64,000 nt of DNA from Scytonema sp. UIC 10036 (GTDB lineage: Bacteria; Cyanobacteriota; Cyanobacteriia; Cyanobacteriales; Nostocaceae). The number at the start of each line of letters is the position of its first letter. The stretch's first letter is position 1. Under the pieces are notes generated by a model, which worked only from the letters and a program-made list of their open reading frames with translations, searched no databases and was not told the origin of the DNA. The position numbers and the translations under genes were made by a program. The stretch covers positions 1-64,000 of the forward strand of contig NZ_WJFC01000032.1 of NCBI RefSeq assembly GCF_009725235.1, given 5' to 3'. Shown piece by piece: positions 5,303 to 22,414 of the stretch.

Positions 5303-6424
5303 TTAACAGCGTTGATACCTCATCCCTGGACGTTGTGAAACTAAACCAATTAATTCTAACTGTAGTAAAGCGCTGGATACTAATCCTGGAGCCATAGCAG
5401 TTTGTTGAACAATAAAATCGAATGGTAATGCTTCTGAAGAAAGTACATTCATAACTTGTTGAAGTTCTGGAGATAAATCGGGTAAAGTTAATTGCTGCGG
5501 TGGAGAGGCGGCTTCAATAGAATCAAGTTCCGGGATTGCTCCTAGCATTTTGAGGAGTTCGTCTAATTCTCTAAGAATGGGAAACGCCCCTTGGCTAATA
5601 AGTTTTAAACATCCTTGGGAAGGGTAGTCATCTAATCTTCCTGGTAGTGCGTAAATATCTCGCCCAAATTCATTGGCATAACTAGCAGTAATCAAAGCAC
5701 CCGATTTGATTGGTGCTTCCATCACTAACACGGCGCGGCTTAAACCAGCTATGATCCGATTGCGGCGGGGAAAATGAGTGCGATCGGGTGGAGTTTTTGA
5801 GGGATATTCACTCAAAACTAATCCATTAGGCAAAATCTGTTTGTAAAGTTCTTTGTTTTTAGATGGATAAACAACATCTACGCCCGTACCAAGGACTGCT
5901 AGTGTACGTCCTCCTGCTTTAATCGTAGCGCTATGGCTTTCCGTATCGATTCCGTCTGCTAAACCGGACACAACTGTGAAACCATTTTTAGCTAAAGCCA
6001 TACTAATTTGACGAGTCCAACGCAAACCATACTCTGAGGGCTGACGTGTTCCGACAATACCAACCGTTGGTTTCTGTCCGAGATTTTCTCGCAAATCAAC
6101 TTCGCCGCGATAGTACAAAATAGGAGGTGGGCTGGGAATCTCTAGCAGCAACCGAGGATACTCTGGATCGGCTGGTGTCCAAAAATGAGGGTTTTGCTGT
6201 TGGTGTTGTTGAAGAAATTTTTCTGGGTGCAAACGCGATCGCTGTTGTATAACTTTAGATAATGTTTGAAAACCAAAACCTTCTACCTCTTTCAACTGAG
6301 CCTCGGTTGCTTCCCAAGCTGCTGCTAGCGTGCCAAAATGCTGTTGCAATCGTCCTAACAGGATAGGACCAACGCCTGAAATTTGCGACCACGCTACCCA
6401 ATACGCACGTTCTTGTCCCACCAA
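5303..6424 (-). CDS. dprA: DNA-processing protein DprA (Smf)
   Basis: The product carries the helix-hairpin-helix start (WSQISGVGPILLGRLQQ), the Rossmann-like core with VGIVGTRQPSEYG, VSGLADGIDTESH and LAVLGTGVDVVYP, then PRRNRIIAGLS, and a C-terminal winged-helix-like domain. DprA loads RecA onto incoming single-stranded DNA in natural transformation. I place the start at the TTG at 6424 because GAGGA lies seven bases upstream and homologues begin close to ERAYW; an in-frame ATG at 6505 would add 27 residues without family resemblance. The gene sits 15-96 bases after the DUF2301 gene, depending on start, on the same strand. Confidence 0.9.
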   Translation of the reverse strand: MVGQERAYWVAWSQISGVGPILLGRLQQHFGTLAAAWEATEAQLKEVEGFGFQTLSKVIQQRSRLHPEKFLQQHQQQNPHFWTPADPEYPRLLLEIPSPPPILYYRGEVDLRENLGQKPTVGIVGTRQPSEYGLRWTRQISMALAKNGFTVVSGLADGIDTESHSATIKAGGRTLAVLGTGVDVVYPSKNKELYKQILPNGLVLSEYPSKTPPDRTHFPRRNRIIAGLSRAVLVMEAPIKSGALITASYANEFGRDIYALPGRLDDYPSQGCLKLISQGAFPILRELDELLKMLGAIPELDSIEAASPPQQLTLPDLSPELQQVMNVLSSEALPFDFIVQQTAMAPGLVSSALLQLELIGLVSQRPGMRYQRC

Positions 6425-6520
6425 TTGCCCATCCTCATTCTCTCTGGGTTTATTGTTCCCAAATTTCAGGAGGTTCGTAGTTGCGGTGCATGGGCTGAAG
6501 CGCAACTACAAACAAAATAA

Positions 6521-7171
6521 TTACGTTGCTTGCCGAGTTTTTAAATACTCGAATACAGACTTATCTCCAATATCTGGAGGAATTGCTTGCACTGCTTTCC
6601 GCACGGCAAATACGACAAACAGAACTGCCCAAATTCCTAATAAAATTTTTTCCCCTTGCGTTGGTAACACCCCAACTAAGTGTCCTAGCAAGAGCAACGG
6701 AACTATTGGTGTTAGTATTTTAGTTTCAAAGCGATTAAAGCAAAACGCTTCTTTAAAATAAATCCCTGTCAATGCTGCAAAAGTAAATCCTACCCCCAGT
6801 AATGTCACTGGTTGAGTATAAACAGTGACAGCTAAGGTTTCGCTACTATACAACGTTAATACTAAGGCGCTAACACTGCCAATTGCCCAAAAAACTTGCA
6901 AAAGTCGGTGTAACATCACCAGATAGATATGTATCATCAGTAAACTGACACCCAAAGCCAGACTAAAACAGACATATAAAGGTGTAAGTACTGAGAAAAA
7001 TTCTGGTTTCTGGTTAAATAAGACTAAAGCAGTACCCGTAGCAAAGCAGAAAGCAGAGACCATAAGCCCTGTACGGTAAACAATAACACCCCTGCGATCG
7101 CTCTGATTAATTGTAAACTCCCCAAACTGACCTTGATAAACTTCCGGTGCAGGTAAAACTTGCTGAGCCAT
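6521..7171 (-). CDS. DUF2301 integral membrane protein
   Basis: A 216-residue protein with about six hydrophobic segments, including VYRTGLMVSAFCFATGTALV, SLALGVSLLMIHIYLVML and IVPLLLLGHLVGVL. The combination of a short soluble N terminus (EVYQGQFGEFTINQSDRRG) and a conserved IYFKEAFCFNRFETKILT loop matches the cyanobacterial DUF2301 family. Function is unknown; it presumably sits in the thylakoid or plasma membrane. It lies directly upstream of dprA and downstream of the SAM hydrolase gene on the same strand, about 90 bases from the latter. Confidence 0.75.
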   Translation of the reverse strand: MAQQVLPAPEVYQGQFGEFTINQSDRRGVIVYRTGLMVSAFCFATGTALVLFNQKPEFFSVLTPLYVCFSLALGVSLLMIHIYLVMLHRLLQVFWAIGSVSALVLTLYSSETLAVTVYTQPVTLLGVGFTFAALTGIYFKEAFCFNRFETKILTPIVPLLLLGHLVGVLPTQGEKILLGIWAVLFVVFAVRKAVQAIPPDIGDKSVFEYLKTRQAT

Positions 7172-7261
7172 AGCAATAGAAATCCGAGATTTTTAATAAC
7201 AGCCAATCATCCCTATGCTATTTTATCCGCGTTCATCTGCTACAGGCTGCGGTTCAATTCT

Positions 7262-8035
7262 TTATTCAAAATACACTTCCAAGCGATCGCCCAACTTTAT
7301 CTGCAACTGCGATCGCGCATTGCCATTGTTCACAGCAATTTCCACCCAACCATGGCTACCAACCAGGGCGATGACCTCACCAACTTTAACATCACTATAA
7401 GTTCCACAGTTGGGAATAGTTATTCCCGCCACTTCTACATTCCATTTTTTCCCCAGCACATCAGTTCCTGGAATGTTAGTCACTAAGTTACCAAAGCGGT
7501 CAATATATTGAATACTACCACTTATTCCCGTTTCCATTACCGTACATTTGGCAATATCCAATTGTACGAGAGTTGCGGGATCGATTGAGTCGCCCAACTG
7601 CTTGAGGGGAACACCGCTAGAAAGATAAGCTGCAACTGGTGCGAAAATGTCCCTCCCGTGGAAGGTACTGCTGGGTTGAGGGGTTCTCCAATACTTGGGA
7701 TTTGTGAGTTCTACGGCTGCTATTGCCGTGCTTTCACTCAAAACTCCACCAAATATACCATTATCAGGTCCCACGAGGTAACCTTTGGCAAATTCTACTG
7801 CGATCGCCCGTCGCGTATTACCTACACCAGGATCGACAACAGCTAGATGCACTGTACCGACTGGAAAATAAAGGTAAGCATCCATTAAGCAGAACCGAGC
7901 AGCCGCGATATCTTGCGGTGGAACTTCATGTGTCAAGTCTACTACCATAAGTTTTGGGTTGATTTGGGCAATCACTCCCTTCATCGCCCCAACGTAAACA
8001 TCACGGGTTCCAAAATCGGTTAGCAAGGTAAGCAT
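7262..8035 (-). CDS. SAM hydrolase / SAM hydroxide adenosyltransferase (DUF62 family)
   Basis: From the ATG at 8035 the product begins MLTLLTDFGTRDVYVGAMKG, which is the family signature; an upstream ATG at 8059 adds eight residues and is less likely. Further motifs are VDLTHEVPPQD, HLAVVDPGVGNTRRA and GPDNGIFGGV. Enzymes of this fold, related to fluorinase and chlorinase, cleave SAM to adenosine and methionine using water. The halogenase-specific loop insert is not evident, so hydrolysis is the likely reaction. The length of about 257 residues is normal. The C-terminal beta-barrel domain covers about residues 165-257. Confidence 0.85.
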   Translation of the reverse strand: MLTLLTDFGTRDVYVGAMKGVIAQINPKLMVVDLTHEVPPQDIAAARFCLMDAYLYFPVGTVHLAVVDPGVGNTRRAIAVEFAKGYLVGPDNGIFGGVLSESTAIAAVELTNPKYWRTPQPSSTFHGRDIFAPVAAYLSSGVPLKQLGDSIDPATLVQLDIAKCTVMETGISGSIQYIDRFGNLVTNIPGTDVLGKKWNVEVAGITIPNCGTYSDVKVGEVIALVGSHGWVEIAVNNGNARSQLQIKLGDRLEVYFE

Positions 8036-8100
8036 GGGGTTGTAAAGCTTCCACAGCAAGATATTGCTGCTTAATAATATATATTAAGTTTATTTTTTCT

Positions 8101-8131
8101 GTAGCAAAAGTTACGAAAAATTTGCTATGTT
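8101..8131 (+). promoter_or_regulatory. NtcA-type box overlapping a putative promoter of the pirA-like gene
   Basis: GTAGCAAAAGTTAC at 8101-8114 is an exact GTA-N8-TAC palindrome, the consensus for the nitrogen regulator NtcA. A -10-like TATGTT lies at 8126-8131, only 11 bases later. Activated NtcA promoters usually have about 22 bases between the box and the -10, so this box would cover the -35 position and would more likely repress. No binding can be shown from sequence alone. Confidence 0.6.
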
Positions 8132-8179
8132 AGGAAAGTTAGACATTTGATGGAGAAATCCAAGAGGCACATTGTTAAA

Positions 8180-8335
8180 ATGAGCAGGAACAGATTGGAA
8201 TCCGTAAAACAAGCACGAGAAACCCACAAACTAAATATTAAAAGAACTTTAGAACATCGCTTAAAAGTGGCTAGAGAAAAAGGCGATGAAAATCTAGTTC
8301 GCCAATTGGAAGCTGAAATGAACTATTTCAGTTAA
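8180..8335 (+). CDS. pirA: Small PII-interacting arginine-synthesis regulator candidate (PirA-like)
   Basis: A 51-residue basic, helical protein: it starts MSRNRLESVKQARETH and ends with AREKGDENLVRQLEAEMNYF. Size and the NRLxxxKxAR and RLKVAREKGDExLxRQLEAE patterns fit my memory of PirA (Ssr0692 type), which sequesters PII and so affects N-acetylglutamate kinase and arginine synthesis. I cannot confirm this by alignment. I chose ATG 8180, with AAGAGG 12 bases upstream, because it gives the known size and lies after the predicted transcript start; ATG 8150 would add ten residues. The NtcA box upstream supports a nitrogen-control role. A strong terminator follows, so it is a monocistronic gene. 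Confidence 0.55.
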   Translation: MSRNRLESVKQARETHKLNIKRTLEHRLKVAREKGDENLVRQLEAEMNYFS

Positions 8336-8380
8336 AAATAGAGTTTTATTGTTCTAGTTCATAGTTTTGTTGTGTGTTAA

Positions 8381-8398
8381 CCCGCCTTGGCGGGTTTT
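8381..8398 (+). terminator. Rho-independent terminator after pirA-like gene
   Basis: CCCGCC (8381-8386) pairs with GGCGGG (8389-8394) around a TT loop and is followed directly by TTTT. It sits 45 bases after the pirA-like stop codon and would end that short transcript. Confidence 0.75.
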
Positions 8399-8497
8399 CG
8401 TATCTTTAACAGCGAGCTATCATCAGCCCCTAATATTTAATCGGGATGAGCAAAAATACCCATCCTATAAGAAATGTGATTTATTTAGTTTGTGTTT

Positions 8498-8827
8498 TTA
8501 TGCATTTGTGAATGCAGATTCGTCTTCGTATATCTCAAATAGTCTATCTAGTTGAGTCAATTCAAAAATCATTTTGAGTGCAGGCGATACAGAGCAAAGA
8601 CTGAAGCGTCGTCCCATATTCTGAGATAACTTTAACACAGATACTAATGCTAACACCGCAGCACTATCTATAGATTCTACTTTACCCAAATCCAGCAGCA
8701 AAATTGAGCAGTCACCCTGTGTTAACAGTGTTGTCAGTTTGCGTTCAAACTCTAGTGCGTTTGCACCATTAATAGAACCATTTGGTCTGATAACTGTCAT
8801 GTTTGGATTTACAAGTGTGCTTTGCAT
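8498..8827 (-). CDS. STAS-domain protein (anti-sigma factor antagonist-like)
   Basis: The 109-residue product is a single STAS domain: PNGSINGANALEFERKL, the core LLLDLGKVESIDSAAVLAL and a C-terminal helix ending RLFEIYEDESAF. The Ser in SIDSAAV occupies the place phosphorylated in SpoIIAA/RsbV-type antagonists. These proteins bind anti-sigma or Ser/Thr kinase partners in partner-switching control. No partner kinase is adjacent. It lies upstream of, and on the same strand as, the exopolysaccharide sugar transferase gene beyond a repeat array (transcription order: sugar transferase first), so a shared regulon is possible but not shown. Confidence 0.8.
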   Translation of the reverse strand: MQSTLVNPNMTVIRPNGSINGANALEFERKLTTLLTQGDCSILLLDLGKVESIDSAAVLALVSVLKLSQNMGRRFSLCSVSPALKMIFELTQLDRLFEIYEDESAFTNA

Positions 8828-9054
8828 GGTTCAGCTTTTATGCGTCAGATAATCAAAGTCTTAATGAAAGGATAAATAGGTCAACCAAAACCAAAAAAGG
8901 ACAAACAAGTCAACAAGAAGGTAGATGACAGAAGGCTAGAGGTAGGAGGCTAGGGTGAGAAAGATGAAGAGTTTGACTAGTATTGATTTTCGATAGCTCA
9001 ACAAAACTTCTAACCCTCAAACTTGTAAAAGCTTAGCAATTAGTCATAAGTTAT

Positions 9055-9128
9055 AACCACTAACTACCAACCACTAACCACTAACCACTAACTACCAACC
9101 ACTAACCACTAACCACTAACTACTAGCC
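9055..9128. repeat. Tandem heptamer array (STRR-like)
   Basis: About ten degenerate 7-base units of the form CCACTAA / CTACCAA run through this intergenic stretch just downstream of the sugar transferase stop codon. Short tandemly repeated heptamers of this kind are typical of heterocyst-forming cyanobacteria. The rest of the 8828-9133 gap has AGGAAGGC-like low-complexity sequence and no gene that I can support. Confidence 0.8.
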
Positions 9129-9133
9129 ATAAC

Positions 9134-10558
9134 CTAATAAGCCCCTGTTTTTTTCAAAACAACGCGTACTGTTTGTAACAAAATCTTCAAGTCCAGCCAC
9201 AGCGACCAATTTTCAATGTATGAAATATCCAGTTTTACTGCGTCTTCAAAATTATCGATATTGGAACGACCAGAGACTTGCCACAATCCTGTAATACCAG
9301 GTAAGACTTCTTGTCTGAGAAAATGCTTTGTTTGGAACTTTTCTACATCTCTAATAGGAAGAGGACGAGGACCAACCAAACTCATCTCTCCTAGCACAAC
9401 ATTAAACAGTTGTGGTAACTCGTCTAAACTGTAGCGGCGTAAAAACTTACCAATTCTGGTGATGCGAGGGTCATTTTTGACTTTAAACAGAACACCATCC
9501 TTGACTTCGTTTTTGGCTTCTAAAGCAGCTTGTAACTTTTCCGCATTAACAACCATGGTACGGAATTTCCATATCTTGAATTTTTGACCGTGCAATCCAA
9601 TTCTGTCCTGTCTAAAAAAGATTGGTCCTGGAGAGTCTAATTTAATCAGTACAGCAAGTGTTAAGTACACAGGTAAAAACAGGAGTATCAGAATGATTGA
9701 AGAACAAAGGTCAAAACATCTTTTTACCCAGAACTCACTACCAGTGATTAATGGTGCTGGAATTGTTACAAAAGGAACTTCACCAATCATCCAGAAATAA
9801 GATTTGGAAGGAAGTACTCCAGCTTCAGTTGGGATAATTCTGATTGTGATACCGGCAGTATAAAAGTGCCAACAGACGTACAGACGCTTTTTGATGGCAT
9901 CCCAAGAGACAAAGACCTCTTCAACACCTAGACTGCGAATATAGTCTAAAGTTGTTTCGCGGACGCTTCTGTCCAAGCAACTTGGGTTAGCTACACCAAC
10001 AACTGTATAACAATCTTCCTTTTCTATAAGCCTGATATTTCTTTCTTGTTCATCAGAATTAGTGATTAGAAAAACTGTATGACGGACGACTCCTTTTTTA
10101 CGCAATAAGTTAGTGGTCACATCAACAAGGAAACGCCCACCACACAGGAAGGTTACTGAGAATAACCAAAATAGCAAAAAGGTTGAGCGAGAGATATAAG
10201 TATTTGGTTCGTAAAGAAAGGCAATGAATAGAAGAAATACATCGGCTAGGGAAACTGCTTTGATAAGACGGGAATAACTCCGACGATTGTACCCCGAACG
10301 ATATAATCCCTGTGCGGTGAGAATTCCTATTTGAACAAATAGAGTTAGTAGTAAGAAAGAAGATTTTTCTGTCCAAGGAGAATTGACTGGAGTCCCATAA
10401 AATACTGCTGCTTTCCATGCTGTCGTTAAAAGTAAGACATCTAGTGGTACTAGCGTCAACACGCGCAAAAATTTAGTTGCAAATCCTTTTTGAATTCTTG
10501 CGCCACGACCTGACCTTAAATCTGGTTTGAACCCGATAACTGACAACTTGTAAGTCAT
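9134..10558 (-). CDS. Exopolysaccharide polyprenyl-phosphate glycosylphosphotransferase
   Basis: A 474-residue membrane enzyme of the WcaJ/WbaP class. The N-terminal half has four or five membrane helices followed by a CoA-binding-like domain (HTVFLITNSDEQERN). The C-terminal bacterial sugar transferase domain is complete: KRCFDLCSSIILILLFLP, SPGPIFFRQDRIGLHG, FKIWKFRTMV, RRYSLDELPQLFNVVLGEM and SLVGPRPLP. Such enzymes transfer hexose-1-phosphate from UDP- or GDP-sugar to undecaprenyl phosphate, the first step of capsule or exopolysaccharide repeat synthesis at the cytoplasmic membrane face. It groups with the GH10 and WecB-type genes upstream on the same strand. Confidence 0.9.
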   Translation of the reverse strand: MTYKLSVIGFKPDLRSGRGARIQKGFATKFLRVLTLVPLDVLLLTTAWKAAVFYGTPVNSPWTEKSSFLLLTLFVQIGILTAQGLYRSGYNRRSYSRLIKAVSLADVFLLFIAFLYEPNTYISRSTFLLFWLFSVTFLCGGRFLVDVTTNLLRKKGVVRHTVFLITNSDEQERNIRLIEKEDCYTVVGVANPSCLDRSVRETTLDYIRSLGVEEVFVSWDAIKKRLYVCWHFYTAGITIRIIPTEAGVLPSKSYFWMIGEVPFVTIPAPLITGSEFWVKRCFDLCSSIILILLFLPVYLTLAVLIKLDSPGPIFFRQDRIGLHGQKFKIWKFRTMVVNAEKLQAALEAKNEVKDGVLFKVKNDPRITRIGKFLRRYSLDELPQLFNVVLGEMSLVGPRPLPIRDVEKFQTKHFLRQEVLPGITGLWQVSGRSNIDNFEDAVKLDISYIENWSLWLDLKILLQTVRVVLKKTGAY

Positions 10559-18968: not shown

Positions 18969-19007
18969 ATTGTTATAAAGTGTTACTATAGATAAAGCAT
19001 AGTGTTT

Positions 19008-19092
19008 GGAGAGGTGGCAGAGCGGTTGAATGCGGCACACTCGAAATGTGTTTTAGGGAAACCTAACGGAGGTTCAAATCCTCTCCTCTCCG
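19008..19092 (+). tRNA. tRNA-Ser (anticodon CGA)
   Basis: An 85-base class II tRNA. The acceptor GGAGAGG (19008-19014) pairs with CCTCTCC (19085-19091), followed by discriminator G. The anticodon loop CTCGAAA gives CGA, reading UCG. A long variable arm (TAGGG/CCTA pairing) and the T-loop GGTTCAAATCC are present. CCA is not encoded. Confidence 0.95.
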
Positions 19093-19498
19093 TTTTCATT
19101 ACTAGGTAAGCTTTTTAGCAATTTTGAGTTCTTCTAGATTAGCTGAAAATGGTTGAACAATGGTTGAATGGTTGAACAAATGGTTGAATCAGGAAATCTT
19201 ATTTAAATTATTAAACTACATAGGAATAGCTTAACCTTATATTTACCCCAATACTGCTTGGTTACGAATATTAGTAGGTTGGGTTGAGGAACGAAACCCA
19301 ACAAACACATTTTTCTTTTTTTAACCAAAACCTACGCAGTATTGATAGTTGCTCGGTGTACCTCTAGCTTCTGAAAAAAAGTTTTTAGCGATCGCTGTTG
19401 AGACTGCATAAACCAAATCAGCCAGACATATGAACCGGTAGGAGCAAGAAAAACAACAATTGCTCTTCTAAAAATCAACTACCTACTGGGAGATATCA
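19093..19498. other. Intergenic region with heptamer array and dispersed hairpin
   Basis: 19150-19190 holds tandem units of the type ATGGTTGAA / TGGTTGAAC. 19278-19302 is a hairpin, GTTGGGTT pairing with AACCCAAC, in a sequence motif common between cyanobacterial genes. The remainder up to 19498 should carry the promoter of the following secreted-peptide gene. No further gene is seen. Confidence 0.55.
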
Positions 19499-19855
19499 AT
19501 GATTTTTTTACGTTCTAAATCCAGCCATTTTGCTTTTTTTATGAGCTTGGCTTTAGCCAGTTCAATTACCAGCACTGTCGCTAGGGCAGAGTCAAATCCT
19601 TTTATTGCTCAAAACACCGTAAGTCAAACTGGTGTTCAGAAAATTAATAATCCTATTATTCGCGACAAAATTGATGTACTCACTCCAGGAAAAATCAATG
19701 GAGCCGATCCCTTTAAAGAAGGATTTGCTGACTTCAAAGAAAAACCTGGTTTTGCTGACTTTACCAAACCTGTTGATAGGTCAAGTATCACCAATCCATC
19801 TATTATACAACGTCCATCAGCAGTTGATACATTCAAACAAATTCAAACTCGTTAA
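19499..19855 (+). CDS. Secreted small protein with GFADF repeats; candidate RiPP precursor
   Basis: A 118-residue protein with GGGAG six bases before the ATG. Residues 1-30 form a Sec signal peptide (charged start, SHFAFFMSLALASSITSTVA, cleavage after ARA30). The mature part is short, polar and lacks Cys. It contains two near-identical units, FKEGFADFKEKP and then GFADFTKP, with GFADF at 75-79 and 84-88. The gene is followed 103 bases later by a radical SAM/SPASM gene. Radical SAM cyclophane synthases join an aromatic residue to the residue two positions on; F-A-D fits that spacing. A RiPP precursor role is inference from context and motif, not from a known family match. Confidence 0.7.
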   Translation: MIFLRSKSSHFAFFMSLALASSITSTVARAESNPFIAQNTVSQTGVQKINNPIIRDKIDVLTPGKINGADPFKEGFADFKEKPGFADFTKPVDRSSITNPSIIQRPSAVDTFKQIQTR

Positions 19856-19958
19856 GTTTGAGTATTGCTTTACCTAATACGAAGTGGCAATACATCTGAG
19901 TTAAACCTTGTAAAGACGTTCTGGCAAAACGTCTTTACTTAACACATAGGTCATCATT

Positions 19959-21143
19959 ATGATACAGGAAACAAAAAAAGTTCAATTTGTTGTCAAAACA
20001 TCCAAGCATTGTAACCTACGGTGTCGCTACTGCTATGAATACGCAGAACTAGCCAACAAACAAGCGATCGCACTTGCTCAAATTCAACAAATGTTTACTA
20101 ATATTGCTAGTTATTATCAACATTTAGAATTTACTGTTGAAATTGAGTTTGTCTGGCATGGTGGAGAACCATTACTGCAAACACCTGATTTTTACTGGAA
20201 AGTTTTTGAGTTCCAAAAGCAGATATTTAAATTTGACCATATTCGAGTTAGAAATGGCGTACAGACAAACCTGACATTATTAGATTCACGACGATTAAAA
20301 CTTTTAAAAGAAGGATTTGATGGGGTAGGAGTTTCAATAGATTTATTTGGAGGATTGCGAGTTTACCAAACAGGTATTGAATCCCAAAATAAGGTTTTAG
20401 AAAACATTGATAAACTGACAAGGGCAAATATTGATTTTGGTTGTATCAGTGTCCTCACCAAGCAAAATTTAGAGTTTATTCCAGAAATCTACAATTTTTA
20501 TAGACAGATGAACCTATCTGCCAGAATATTACCTTTATTCAAAGGCTCGTTTGAAAATCAACATCAAGGTTTCGAGATAACTCCATACGAAGTCTTAGAA
20601 GCTTATAAAAAACTGGTAGATTTATGGCTGGCAGATGAAAAATTGGTTTGGATATCGCCAATTTATGAAGCAATTAAGCAGGTAGTTCATCACTACACAC
20701 CCAATGCTCCAACAAGTTTCTATGATAAACGTGAATGGGAGTCAATATATATTGTTGATGTTGATGGAGAAGTTTATAGCTATGCAGATGCTTATTTAAT
20801 AACTCACAGCCACGGTAACATCTTTAATCAACCTCTTGGTTCATTAATTAATAGCGAGCGGCATCAAAAGATAGTTATTGAAGCAGAAGAAAGAATTCAA
20901 GAAACGTGCAGTCAATGTAAGTTTTTCGGGAGTTGTAGCAGTTATCCAATCGCCGAAGGAAATCGACAATATAATGAACTGAATTCAGACGGTTCGATTA
21001 AGTGTATTGTTGATAAAGGACTTCGACAATATATTGAGTATCGGCTATTTGATATGGGAATTATTGATGTGGATAGAGGATACATCAAATTGGAAAGGTT
21101 GGAACTCGAACGCCAAAGTTCGCCTAGTTTAGGCTATGTTTAG
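19959..21143 (+). CDS. Radical SAM/SPASM protein, candidate peptide maturase
   Basis: A 394-residue enzyme. C18-N-L-R-C22-R-Y-C25 is the CX3CX2C ligand of the SAM [4Fe-4S] cluster. VWHGGEPLL is the conserved GGEP motif, and VQTNLTLL and GVGVSIDLFGG are strand motifs of the partial TIM barrel. At the C terminus, residues about 317-350 contain C-SQ-C-KFFGS-C and a later Cys, the SPASM-type auxiliary cluster ligands found in peptide-modifying radical SAM enzymes. No RRE-type N-terminal domain is seen. The upstream secreted protein with GFADF repeats is the obvious substrate. It resembles the general GrrM/OscB style of maturase, but I cannot assign a subfamily. Confidence 0.85.
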   Translation: MIQETKKVQFVVKTSKHCNLRCRYCYEYAELANKQAIALAQIQQMFTNIASYYQHLEFTVEIEFVWHGGEPLLQTPDFYWKVFEFQKQIFKFDHIRVRNGVQTNLTLLDSRRLKLLKEGFDGVGVSIDLFGGLRVYQTGIESQNKVLENIDKLTRANIDFGCISVLTKQNLEFIPEIYNFYRQMNLSARILPLFKGSFENQHQGFEITPYEVLEAYKKLVDLWLADEKLVWISPIYEAIKQVVHHYTPNAPTSFYDKREWESIYIVDVDGEVYSYADAYLITHSHGNIFNQPLGSLINSERHQKIVIEAEERIQETCSQCKFFGSCSSYPIAEGNRQYNELNSDGSIKCIVDKGLRQYIEYRLFDMGIIDVDRGYIKLERLELERQSSPSLGYV

Positions 21144-21247
21144 ATTTCTGGCATTGTCAACCCTAAGTATATTTTACTGTTTCCTAATGAGAGTTCTTTG
21201 TTCCCTTTTTTGAGTTATACTAACCCCATATTTTGAGGAGTGCAATT

Positions 21248-22414
21248 ATGGGCAACCAGCGCTTGGGGAAACTGTTGTCTTTTGGCTTTATTAGTTTGTG
21301 TTTTAGTTTGGGTATTGGTATAGGATTATTTATTCGCTTTGGACAAATACAGCGATCGCAAGCGGCAAGCACATCCACAGATACATTGCCAGTCCCTTTT
21401 TCTGTACCAGAGTTCCCAACGTCAGATACTATTACCATCCAAGCGGTTGGAGACATAATTCCCGGCACAAACTATCCTAACTACAGGTTACCAAGCGATC
21501 GCGACCAACTGCTGCCAAAGTCTGTACGAGCATATCTACACAGAGCAGACATTCTATTTGGTAACTTTGAAACGAGCTTAACCAACCACCCCTACAGCGC
21601 CAAAGACATCAGCCGGGGACAAGTGTTTGCCTTTCGTTCCCCACCCTCCTACGCTCAACTGTTTGCTGATGTTGGATTTGATGTTATGAACATAGCCAAC
21701 AATCATGCACGAGATTTTGGTTTAATAGGGTTCCGAGACACAGTCAAACACCTTAAAGCAGTTGGAATAGACACATTAGGGCATAAAAATCAAATTCTTG
21801 TATTAGAACTTGACAATATTCGAGTTGCGATGATTGGGTTTGCTCCTTACGAACATTACAATTCCATTCACGATCTAGATACAGCCAAAGCACTCGTAGG
21901 AGAAGCCAAAAAAAATGCCAACATAGTCATTGTGTCAATGCACGCGGGAGCAGAGGGAACAAGTGCATTACACGTCAAAAATAAAACTGAGTATTTCTAC
22001 GGAGAAAATCGAGGAAATTCCGTCCTGTTTGCGCGAACAATGATTGACGCGGGAGCAGATCTAGTCCTCGGACACGGTCCCCATGTTCCGCGAGCAATGG
22101 AAATCTATAATGATAAACTCATTGCCTACTCTTTAGGAAATTTTTTGGGATATCGAACGCTATCCACAGTAGCCCAAACAGGGTATTCAATGATTTTAGA
22201 AGTCAAGATTAATTCTCAAGGAGATTTGGTAGGAAGTAAGATTATTCCCATTCGTTTAGATCGCCAAGGAATCCCCCGTATCGATCAACGCTTCCATACA
22301 GTAGGGCTGTTACGTGATTTAATTAGTAAAGATTTTCCCAACCAACAAGTCAAGATTAACAAGAAAGGCGAAATTGTCGTGGACGATAGCGATTTAGTTG
22401 CAGAAAAAGAATAA
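21248..22414 (+). CDS. CapA family protein (poly-gamma-glutamate synthesis-like phosphoesterase fold)
   Basis: From the ATG at 21248, with GAGGAG seven bases upstream, the product has one N-terminal membrane anchor (LLSFGFISLCFSLGIGIGLF) and a calcineurin-like CapA domain: IQAVGDIIPGTNYP, DILFGNFETSLTNH, VMNIANNHARDFG, IVIVSMHAGAE and LVLGHGPHVPRAMEIY, with LIAYSLGNFLGY near the end. These hold the metal-binding Asp/His/Asn residues. CapA takes part in capsule poly-gamma-glutamate production in Bacillus, but cyanobacterial members have no known substrate. It starts about 105 bases after the radical SAM gene on the same strand and may share its transcript. Confidence 0.85.
   Translation: MGNQRLGKLLSFGFISLCFSLGIGIGLFIRFGQIQRSQAASTSTDTLPVPFSVPEFPTSDTITIQAVGDIIPGTNYPNYRLPSDRDQLLPKSVRAYLHRADILFGNFETSLTNHPYSAKDISRGQVFAFRSPPSYAQLFADVGFDVMNIANNHARDFGLIGFRDTVKHLKAVGIDTLGHKNQILVLELDNIRVAMIGFAPYEHYNSIHDLDTAKALVGEAKKNANIVIVSMHAGAEGTSALHVKNKTEYFYGENRGNSVLFARTMIDAGADLVLGHGPHVPRAMEIYNDKLIAYSLGNFLGYRTLSTVAQTGYSMILEVKINSQGDLVGSKIIPIRLDRQGIPRIDQRFHTVGLLRDLISKDFPNQQVKINKKGEIVVDDSDLVAEKE

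Follow-up and report, generated by a model that had tools for sequence, protein, structure and literature searches.

A 64,000-nucleotide stretch of DNA from the cyanobacterium Scytonema sp. UIC 10036 (contig NZ_WJFC01000032.1, positions 1 to 64,000; hereafter the window) carries a small gene for a putative secreted peptide followed by a gene for a radical S-adenosylmethionine (SAM)/SPASM enzyme. The two probably form a two-gene system for a triceptide, a ribosomally synthesized and post-translationally modified peptide (RiPP) with three-residue cyclophanes, a reading that the genes support well. An earlier note on this DNA had described a Cys-free precursor of 118 residues with two GFADF units, a 103-base gap and a radical SAM/SPASM enzyme, all of which open reading frames (ORFs) and Pfam matches confirm: both genes lie on the + strand, the gap spans 19856-19958, and the enzyme scores 51.8 bits against Radical_SAM (cut-off 29.5) and, marginally, 21.8 bits against SPASM (cut-off 21.5). 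The precursor begins with MIFLRSKSSHFAFFMSLALASSITSTVARA, a signal-peptide-like N terminus with AxA at residues 28-30 (by eye), and its GFADF units, residues 75-79 and 84-88, fall within GFADFKEKPGFADF. Pfam gives nothing for this protein at E ≤ 1, and NCBIfam a single meaningless match (10 bits of 2801). Two traits of the triceptide class are seen here: a small precursor stands beside the SPASM enzyme at 12 of 12 places, and core aromatics have a candidate acceptor at +2, with all four window core Phe (76, 79, 85 and 88) followed at that spacing by a polar residue (D78, E81, D87 and K90).

Homologues of the precursor are few, a search at E ≤ 0.01 yielding 7 among 5.8 billion proteins, the window's own included, and GFADFKEKPGFADF is unchanged in all seven. 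Comparison of four Calothrix-type genes (the window and L001, L002 and L003 in our numbering of loci) shows that, among the 19 codon columns of residues 73-91, 13 are identical, six differ only synonymously and none varies in amino acid, against 14 of 42 amino-acid-variable columns in residues 31-72 and 8 of 12 in residues 92-103. An invariant core between variable flanks points to selection on the peptide; as judged from these codons, the core is under purifying selection and the pattern is not one of chance. The nearest named relatives are Calothrix, with enzymes 85-87% identical; Calothrix PCC 7103 has the pair at L002.

The pairing of precursor and enzyme proposed in the earlier note is borne out across genomes. 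A nine-precursor profile (E ≤ 0.001) matched 18 places in 16 of 217 family genomes; 11 matches are full-length, one covers positions 4-85 and six cover about the first 45 positions, corresponding to the signal peptide. The enzyme adjoins all 12 places matched beyond the signal peptide (L095-L104 and L105 by tblastn, the second place in genome G002 by coordinates). The 217 genomes supplied none of the precursor homologues far from radical SAM genes that the earlier note held would speak against it: the enzyme-less places (three of the six were inspected, with no enzyme match at 1e-10) match in the signal peptide alone. Nine of nine enzyme-bearing genomes tested match the precursor profile, several having supplied its rows, and the single genome of 388 matched by a GFADF-type profile carries the enzyme. 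The nine-row profile of Sec-type precursors found 29 proteins at E ≤ 0.1, 28 of which contain an aromatic-x-polar core unit (by eye).

The +2 rule extends to the relatives. We selected 47 precursors by eye, which gave 33 non-redundant cores. Of the 209 positions at +2 of a core F, W or Y, 137 (66%) carry D, E, N, Q, R or K, against a mean of 36% after shuffling (z 9.5; 0 of 1000 shuffles reached the level); the counts are 85/210 at +1 and 62/206 at +3. This curated set leaves out L026 (not extracted), L030, L032, L033 and L034 (no upstream ORF with a motif was selected), L031 (enzyme frame not found intact), L035 (26% match over ~200 residues), L040, L045, L073, L074 and L081 (same contigs, near-copies, or no ORF chosen) and L036, L039 and L048 (repeats of L002 and L012). 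ORFs picked by rule at 50 of 55 loci (35 non-redundant; L026, L030, L032 and L033 taken in, none for L009, L013, L034, L040 or L045) gave 127/212 at +2, z 7.8, and 93/213 at −2. The positive control, GrrA cores of five precursors from 10 GrrM loci, reached 44/49, while the negative controls gave 38/161 (N-terminal parts of the precursors) and 0.35 (clade enzymes). The i/i+2 spacing suggested in the earlier note holds in both sets; its FAD motif is present but is only one version of a wider motif, found in relatives as FVD, FVN, FRE, FKE, WVQ, WIE, YNE, YLQ and FRQ. Upstream small ORFs contain such cores as FRDAFRDSFKE, PFVNFKKP, FREVFREV, PSFVQNQP, PSWVNQ, YNRVYNEV..PYLQ, DFWVEGP..WHERF and FHQFNQF..FRQ. 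Distant cyanobacterial members (L041-L047, L077-L080 and L082) have larger signal-bearing precursors of ~170-295 residues, with units WTEGGTWTQGP, WSESGWREGG or WDQSSWTDQGGW.

How many rings the window core would carry is less certain. The two FAD units named in the earlier note stand as candidate ring sites, but its count does not, FKE and FTK raising the candidates to as many as four. Closure at the FAD units alone, with F79 and F88 free, is a reading that we doubt yet take seriously, given that the FAD repeats are exact, that GrrA cores use F-A-D and F-A-N, and that position 90 drifts from K (five homologues) to R (two). Against it, F79-K80-E81 is invariant in 7/7 homologues, and the relatives' runs FRDAFRDSFKE and FVDFSDEPLFVQ have a polar +2 residue at nearly every aromatic.

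In the mechanism that we propose, the enzyme would act on the precursor in the cytoplasm, before Sec export. A 5′-deoxyadenosyl radical would take a β-hydrogen from the residue at +2 of a Phe, and the resulting β-carbon would bond to the ring of that Phe. As many as four cyclophanes could form in this way, of the types Phe-x-Asp, Phe-x-Glu and perhaps Phe-x-Lys, each with a loss of 2 Da, up to 8 Da in all. Its own signal peptide would then carry the peptide out, which would make an exporter or protease gene unnecessary; presumably no further cleavage follows, and a stapled product of ~88 residues would reach the periplasm or the outside; a role as an envelope or extracellular peptide is our guess. 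Cyclophane formation is, by analogy, the simplest account of the enzyme's action: the links described are Trp-Asn, Trp-Asp and Phe-Asn for OscB and Tyr-Asp for YxdB, all at i/i+2 (PMC11002830). Thioether chemistry is excluded because the precursor lacks Cys. The bond type, like the timing of modification, is what we infer, and the enzyme might act on the same motif otherwise, by forming an ether link or by epimerising, hydroxylating or desaturating the +2 residue. This we judge unlikely. The nearest curated models do include DynA and DarE, makers of other bonds too (descriptions of the chemistry of DarE in PMC9055067 and of DynE in PMC11002830), and sequence does not reveal the bond type; however, aromatics and their +2 residues follow the same pattern as in GrrA, the partner of which is described as making cyclophanes (PMC11002830), and the separate oxygenase beside many relatives (see below) speaks against hydroxylation as the task of this enzyme.

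The enzyme keeps four of the eight cluster ligands of the sulfatase maturase anSME, and its SPASM part is reduced. With SPASM cysteines assigned to auxiliary clusters AuxI and AuxII as described in PMC5682303, the AuxII set is complete and the AuxI positions 254, 260, 275 and 330 lack Cys, so the SPASM-type Cys motifs of the earlier note hold for AuxII but not for AuxI. The same is true of the whole clade of 44 rows (AuxII 44/44, AuxI 0/44), in which the eight-cysteine set of the sulfatase maturases is not found; the AuxII-only set is common to GrrM (10/10) and FxsB (6/6). That the enzyme is sulfatase-maturase-like, with some other protein as substrate and the small gene a bystander, is very improbable: the precursor is paired with the enzyme at every one of the 12 places, AuxI ligands are absent throughout the clade, no sulfatase recurs as a neighbour, and the tree separates the enzyme. 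The sulfatase maturase model (TIGR03942) gives 136 bits against a cut-off of 349.45.

Scores against named families place the enzyme outside each. Among the 25 NCBIfam models listed, of 69, it falls under the cut-off of every one, including DynA (NF041298; 162.7 bits, cut-off 450), DarE (NF038005; 102.6 bits) and DarW (NF041300; 85.8 bits; cut-off 650), GrrM/OscB (TIGR04261; 100.6 bits, cut-off 310), AmcB (NF041718; 91.4 bits, cut-off 425), YhhB (NF041707; 82.3 bits, cut-off 445) and FxsB (TIGR04269; 57.4 bits, cut-off 370). In the tree, whose references do not include XncB, OscB, YxdB, HaaB or a true DynA, the 44-row clade stands apart from 10 GrrM rows with support 100/99. By this tree the clade is separate from the named families tested, in keeping with the separate family that the earlier note had suspected. 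FxsB, though it shares the retained AuxII and absent AuxI ligands, likewise falls in a separate clade. Each of the nine clade enzymes scanned scores highest in NCBIfam against DynA, at 121-163 bits. A search for a DynA to serve as tree reference gave 0 of 398 sampled genomes above the DynA cut-off; the 12 DynA-nearest proteins fell outside the clade in a quick tree and keep Cys at positions 275 and 330, columns 254 and 260 of that alignment being unreliable (sulfatase maturases show no Cys there). The enzyme's list of structure matches shows no GrrM, FxsB or XncB entry, an absence that is uninformative. A literature search of titles and abstract openings, which did not extend to the precursor lists of Sugiyama et al. 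2022 and Nguyen et al. 2020, found no paper on the clade.

The closest likeness is to GrrA/GrrM (OscA/OscB; TIGR04260/TIGR04261) of cyanobacteria, the analogy drawn in the earlier note. There too a small signal-like precursor lies just 5′ of a SPASM enzyme, GrrM-partner precursors contain GFADG, GFANG and GWADG, the +2 rule applies and the AuxI ligands are lost identically. That the pair is simply a diverged GrrA/GrrM nevertheless seems to us highly unlikely, given the GrrM score and the tree. Moreover, the window precursor is not Gly-rich, has an SAVDTF tail and does not match the TIGR04260 model, which the L051 GrrA passes with a score of 62 (cut-off 31); the first AuxII cysteine of the window enzyme lies one position later. 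The pair is better described as a new branch of the known cyclophane-type enzymes. The earlier reading is right in substance and partly supported, its crosslinks and rigid surface peptide being predictions.

Several observations weigh against a triceptide assignment for the window and its relatives. The NCBIfam ranking places DynA first and the anaerobic sulfatase maturase second for the enzyme, which leaves room for other chemistry. DarE, which makes C-C and ether links, retains part of the AuxI set (C275 and C330), so the cysteine pattern is no general rule for crosslinkers. Offset −2 is also raised in the curated cores (95/211, z 2.7; D, E, N and Q alone 77/211, z 4.0), which may be the effect expected of tandem motifs, among other causes not separated from it. 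The 29th profile-found protein, P0148 (70 residues), has no core. Among alphaproteobacterial loci, the upstream ORFs of L030, L032 and L033 (147-177 residues) are of another build with no plain motif, and the rule-based choice of ORFs gave no precursor candidate for L034.

A contig scan with an alignment of 22 enzymes recovered 35 loci from cyanobacteria, Streptomyces and its kin, Nocardia, a Polyangium, a Pedobacter and proteobacteria. The enzyme is uncommon (E ≤ 1e-60), occurring in 9 of 388 genomes of the class of Calothrix PCC 7103 and 16 of 388 of its order, two samples that overlap. In many relatives a protein of ~300 residues directly follows the enzyme (L004, L008-L011, L020, L021, L024, L027, L071 and L072) or is fused to it (L013/L040 and L045). 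Six copies (L004, L008, L010, L020, L021 and fused L013) have no Pfam match above cut-off; the family profile matches the oxoglutarate-dependent oxygenase MicC (PDB 9vkm; E 1e-45), a name taken from the title of that entry alone. The same literature search found no paper on MicC and none on ChlB. Residues H187, D189 and H281, invariant in 8/8, would bind iron; the predicted model of this protein is poor (pLDDT 65.6). No such gene was found in the window (tblastn, E ≤ 1e-4). L013 contains tandem enzymes (5983-8142 and 8139-10355), each a radical SAM protein fused to a MicC-like oxygenase domain, adjoining one nif11 precursor, and the same genes occur in L040 and L045.

The relatives also differ in their leaders. 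All four precursors scanned from the clade for this feature, those of L010 (second copy), L011, L013 and L021, have nif11 leaders above the curated cut-off; L021 has an NHLP exporter above its cut-off, and L013 encodes an HlyD-type protein that has homologues among the ORFs of L011 and L021. The MicC-like oxygenase, nif11 leaders and NHLP exporter are RiPP hallmarks, whereas the window precursor has a Sec-type signal with no exporter seen beside it. The enzymes of L020 (signal-peptide type) and L021 (nif11 type) are 69% identical, yet their precursors align only over ~49 C-terminal columns comprising core and tail (E 7e-9), GPxWVQNQPY...SAVxxFxSL; those of L008 and L021 likewise align over core and tail (3e-7). 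In the tree, Sec-type cyanobacterial enzymes form one group (99/98) and nif11-type enzymes do not (2 changes). Related enzymes serving Sec-signal and nif11 precursors that share core and tail indicate that the leader, and hence the export route, has been exchanged while core and tail stayed.

Two segments of the precursor are possible recognition elements. In a nine-row alignment of Sec-type precursors, K57 and P63 of the segment at residues 51-66 are invariant. In the tail, R105-V109 and T111-K113 are invariant in 7/7 homologues and residue 110 varies; an SAVxxF tail is also present in the nif11-type precursors of L013 and L021. A position matrix built on 10 Sec-type tails reached significance (0.01) for only three of the 32 rows tested (nif11-type L013 and L021, and L075), and on the five GrrA controls its best p was 0.012, inside a signal peptide; we therefore assign the tail to cyanobacterial members only, with exceptions even there, as nif11-type L010 and L011 lack it. 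A universal C-terminal helix, considered because VRDTF or SVREAYLRL of large precursors from cyanobacteria and actinobacteria resembled the SAVDTF tail by eye, was rejected on the matrix result. Streptomyces-type precursors with WVE/WHE cores (L022, L023, L025, L026 and L029) have a helix-like stretch at both ends, in L022 SRSAYLRLLAL before and SVREAYLRLRLTL after the core (by eye), to which the tail matrix gave no support. Our tentative reading, which we hold with less than even confidence, is that the clade recognises core and tail (SAVxTF..L) and not the leader, freeing an exchange between Sec export without an exporter gene and a nif11 double-glycine leader with a dedicated exporter; that the window peptide is Sec-exported and stapled at up to four sites; and that this clade makes up a further, widespread cyclophane family beside those already named.

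If correct, the triceptide assignment would add to the likely cyclophane makers an unnamed clade spanning cyanobacteria, actinobacteria, a myxobacterium, a Pedobacter and alphaproteobacteria, in which the acceptors would be acidic, amide or basic residues and the donors Phe, Trp or Tyr. The loss of AuxI in this clade, GrrM and FxsB bears on which auxiliary cluster accepts the electron. Were the tail and not the leader to guide the enzyme, leaders would be freely exchangeable, which would be useful for peptide engineering.

Table 1. Features of the precursor-enzyme pair, in window coordinates.
Feature	Position	Strand	Detail or basis
Hairpin in precursor mRNA leader, directly 5′ of ribosome-binding region	19435..19489	+	
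Precursor gene	19499..19855	+	118 residues, no Cys; ORF translation
Sec signal-peptide-like N terminus, residues 1-30, ending ARA	19499..19588	+	by eye
Conserved segment NPIIRDKIDVLTPGKI, residues 51-66, between signal and core	19649..19696	+	
Core GFADFKEKPGFADFTK, residues 75-90	19721..19768	+	core invariance, codon columns, +2 rule
Candidate rings F76-D78 (FAD), F79-E81 (FKE), F85-D87 (FAD), F88-K90 (FTK)			
C-terminal tail motif RPSAVDTFK, residues 105-113	19811..19837	+	7-homologue alignment
Radical SAM/SPASM enzyme	19959..21143	+	394 residues
CX3CX2C radical SAM cluster motif, C18/C22/C25	20010..20033	+	44/44 clade rows
AuxII ligand set C317, C320, C326, C349	20907..21005	+	alignment to anSME ligands

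The leader hairpin is kept in L001-L003. Of its 13 pairs, compared in four sequences, three covary with pairing retained and four are broken in one sequence, a weak covariation signal with which translation control is possible. In the gap, a perfect 11-bp inverted repeat (19910-19938) has no other match inside the window; as a conserved attenuator the hairpin was rejected, being stable (z −2.4) but absent from the gaps of L001-L003. An Rfam scan at E ≤ 1 gave one tRNA and one match under gathering score, nothing more; a tRNA-Ser (CGA) gene lies 5′ of the precursor at 19007-19093.

Comparison of ORFs at the 35 loci showed, among the first 30 groups listed, no further neighbour of the pair that the window shares with at least three other loci. 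Directly 3′ of the enzyme lies a PGA_cap protein (21233-22414; 165.7 bits) with a match under cut-off to the lasso-peptide epimerase MslH (76.5 of 700 bits), which the same comparison shows to be no conserved neighbour. A window-like signal peptide, ALVMGLAIASSIISTVAKAES, occurs in two further genomes, G1179 and G754 (L106 2590-3069 and L107 2732-3157, both on the − strand), in a small protein that differs from the window precursor and carries KESSDKGKDSKETCESGNCGG. This gene is followed by one for a protein of 261/262 residues without a Pfam match and then by one for a protein of 554/558 residues, which has a match under cut-off to the WelO5 oxygenase and, in L106 only, one to a RimK ATP-grasp protein, also under cut-off; the group is perhaps another secreted RiPP.
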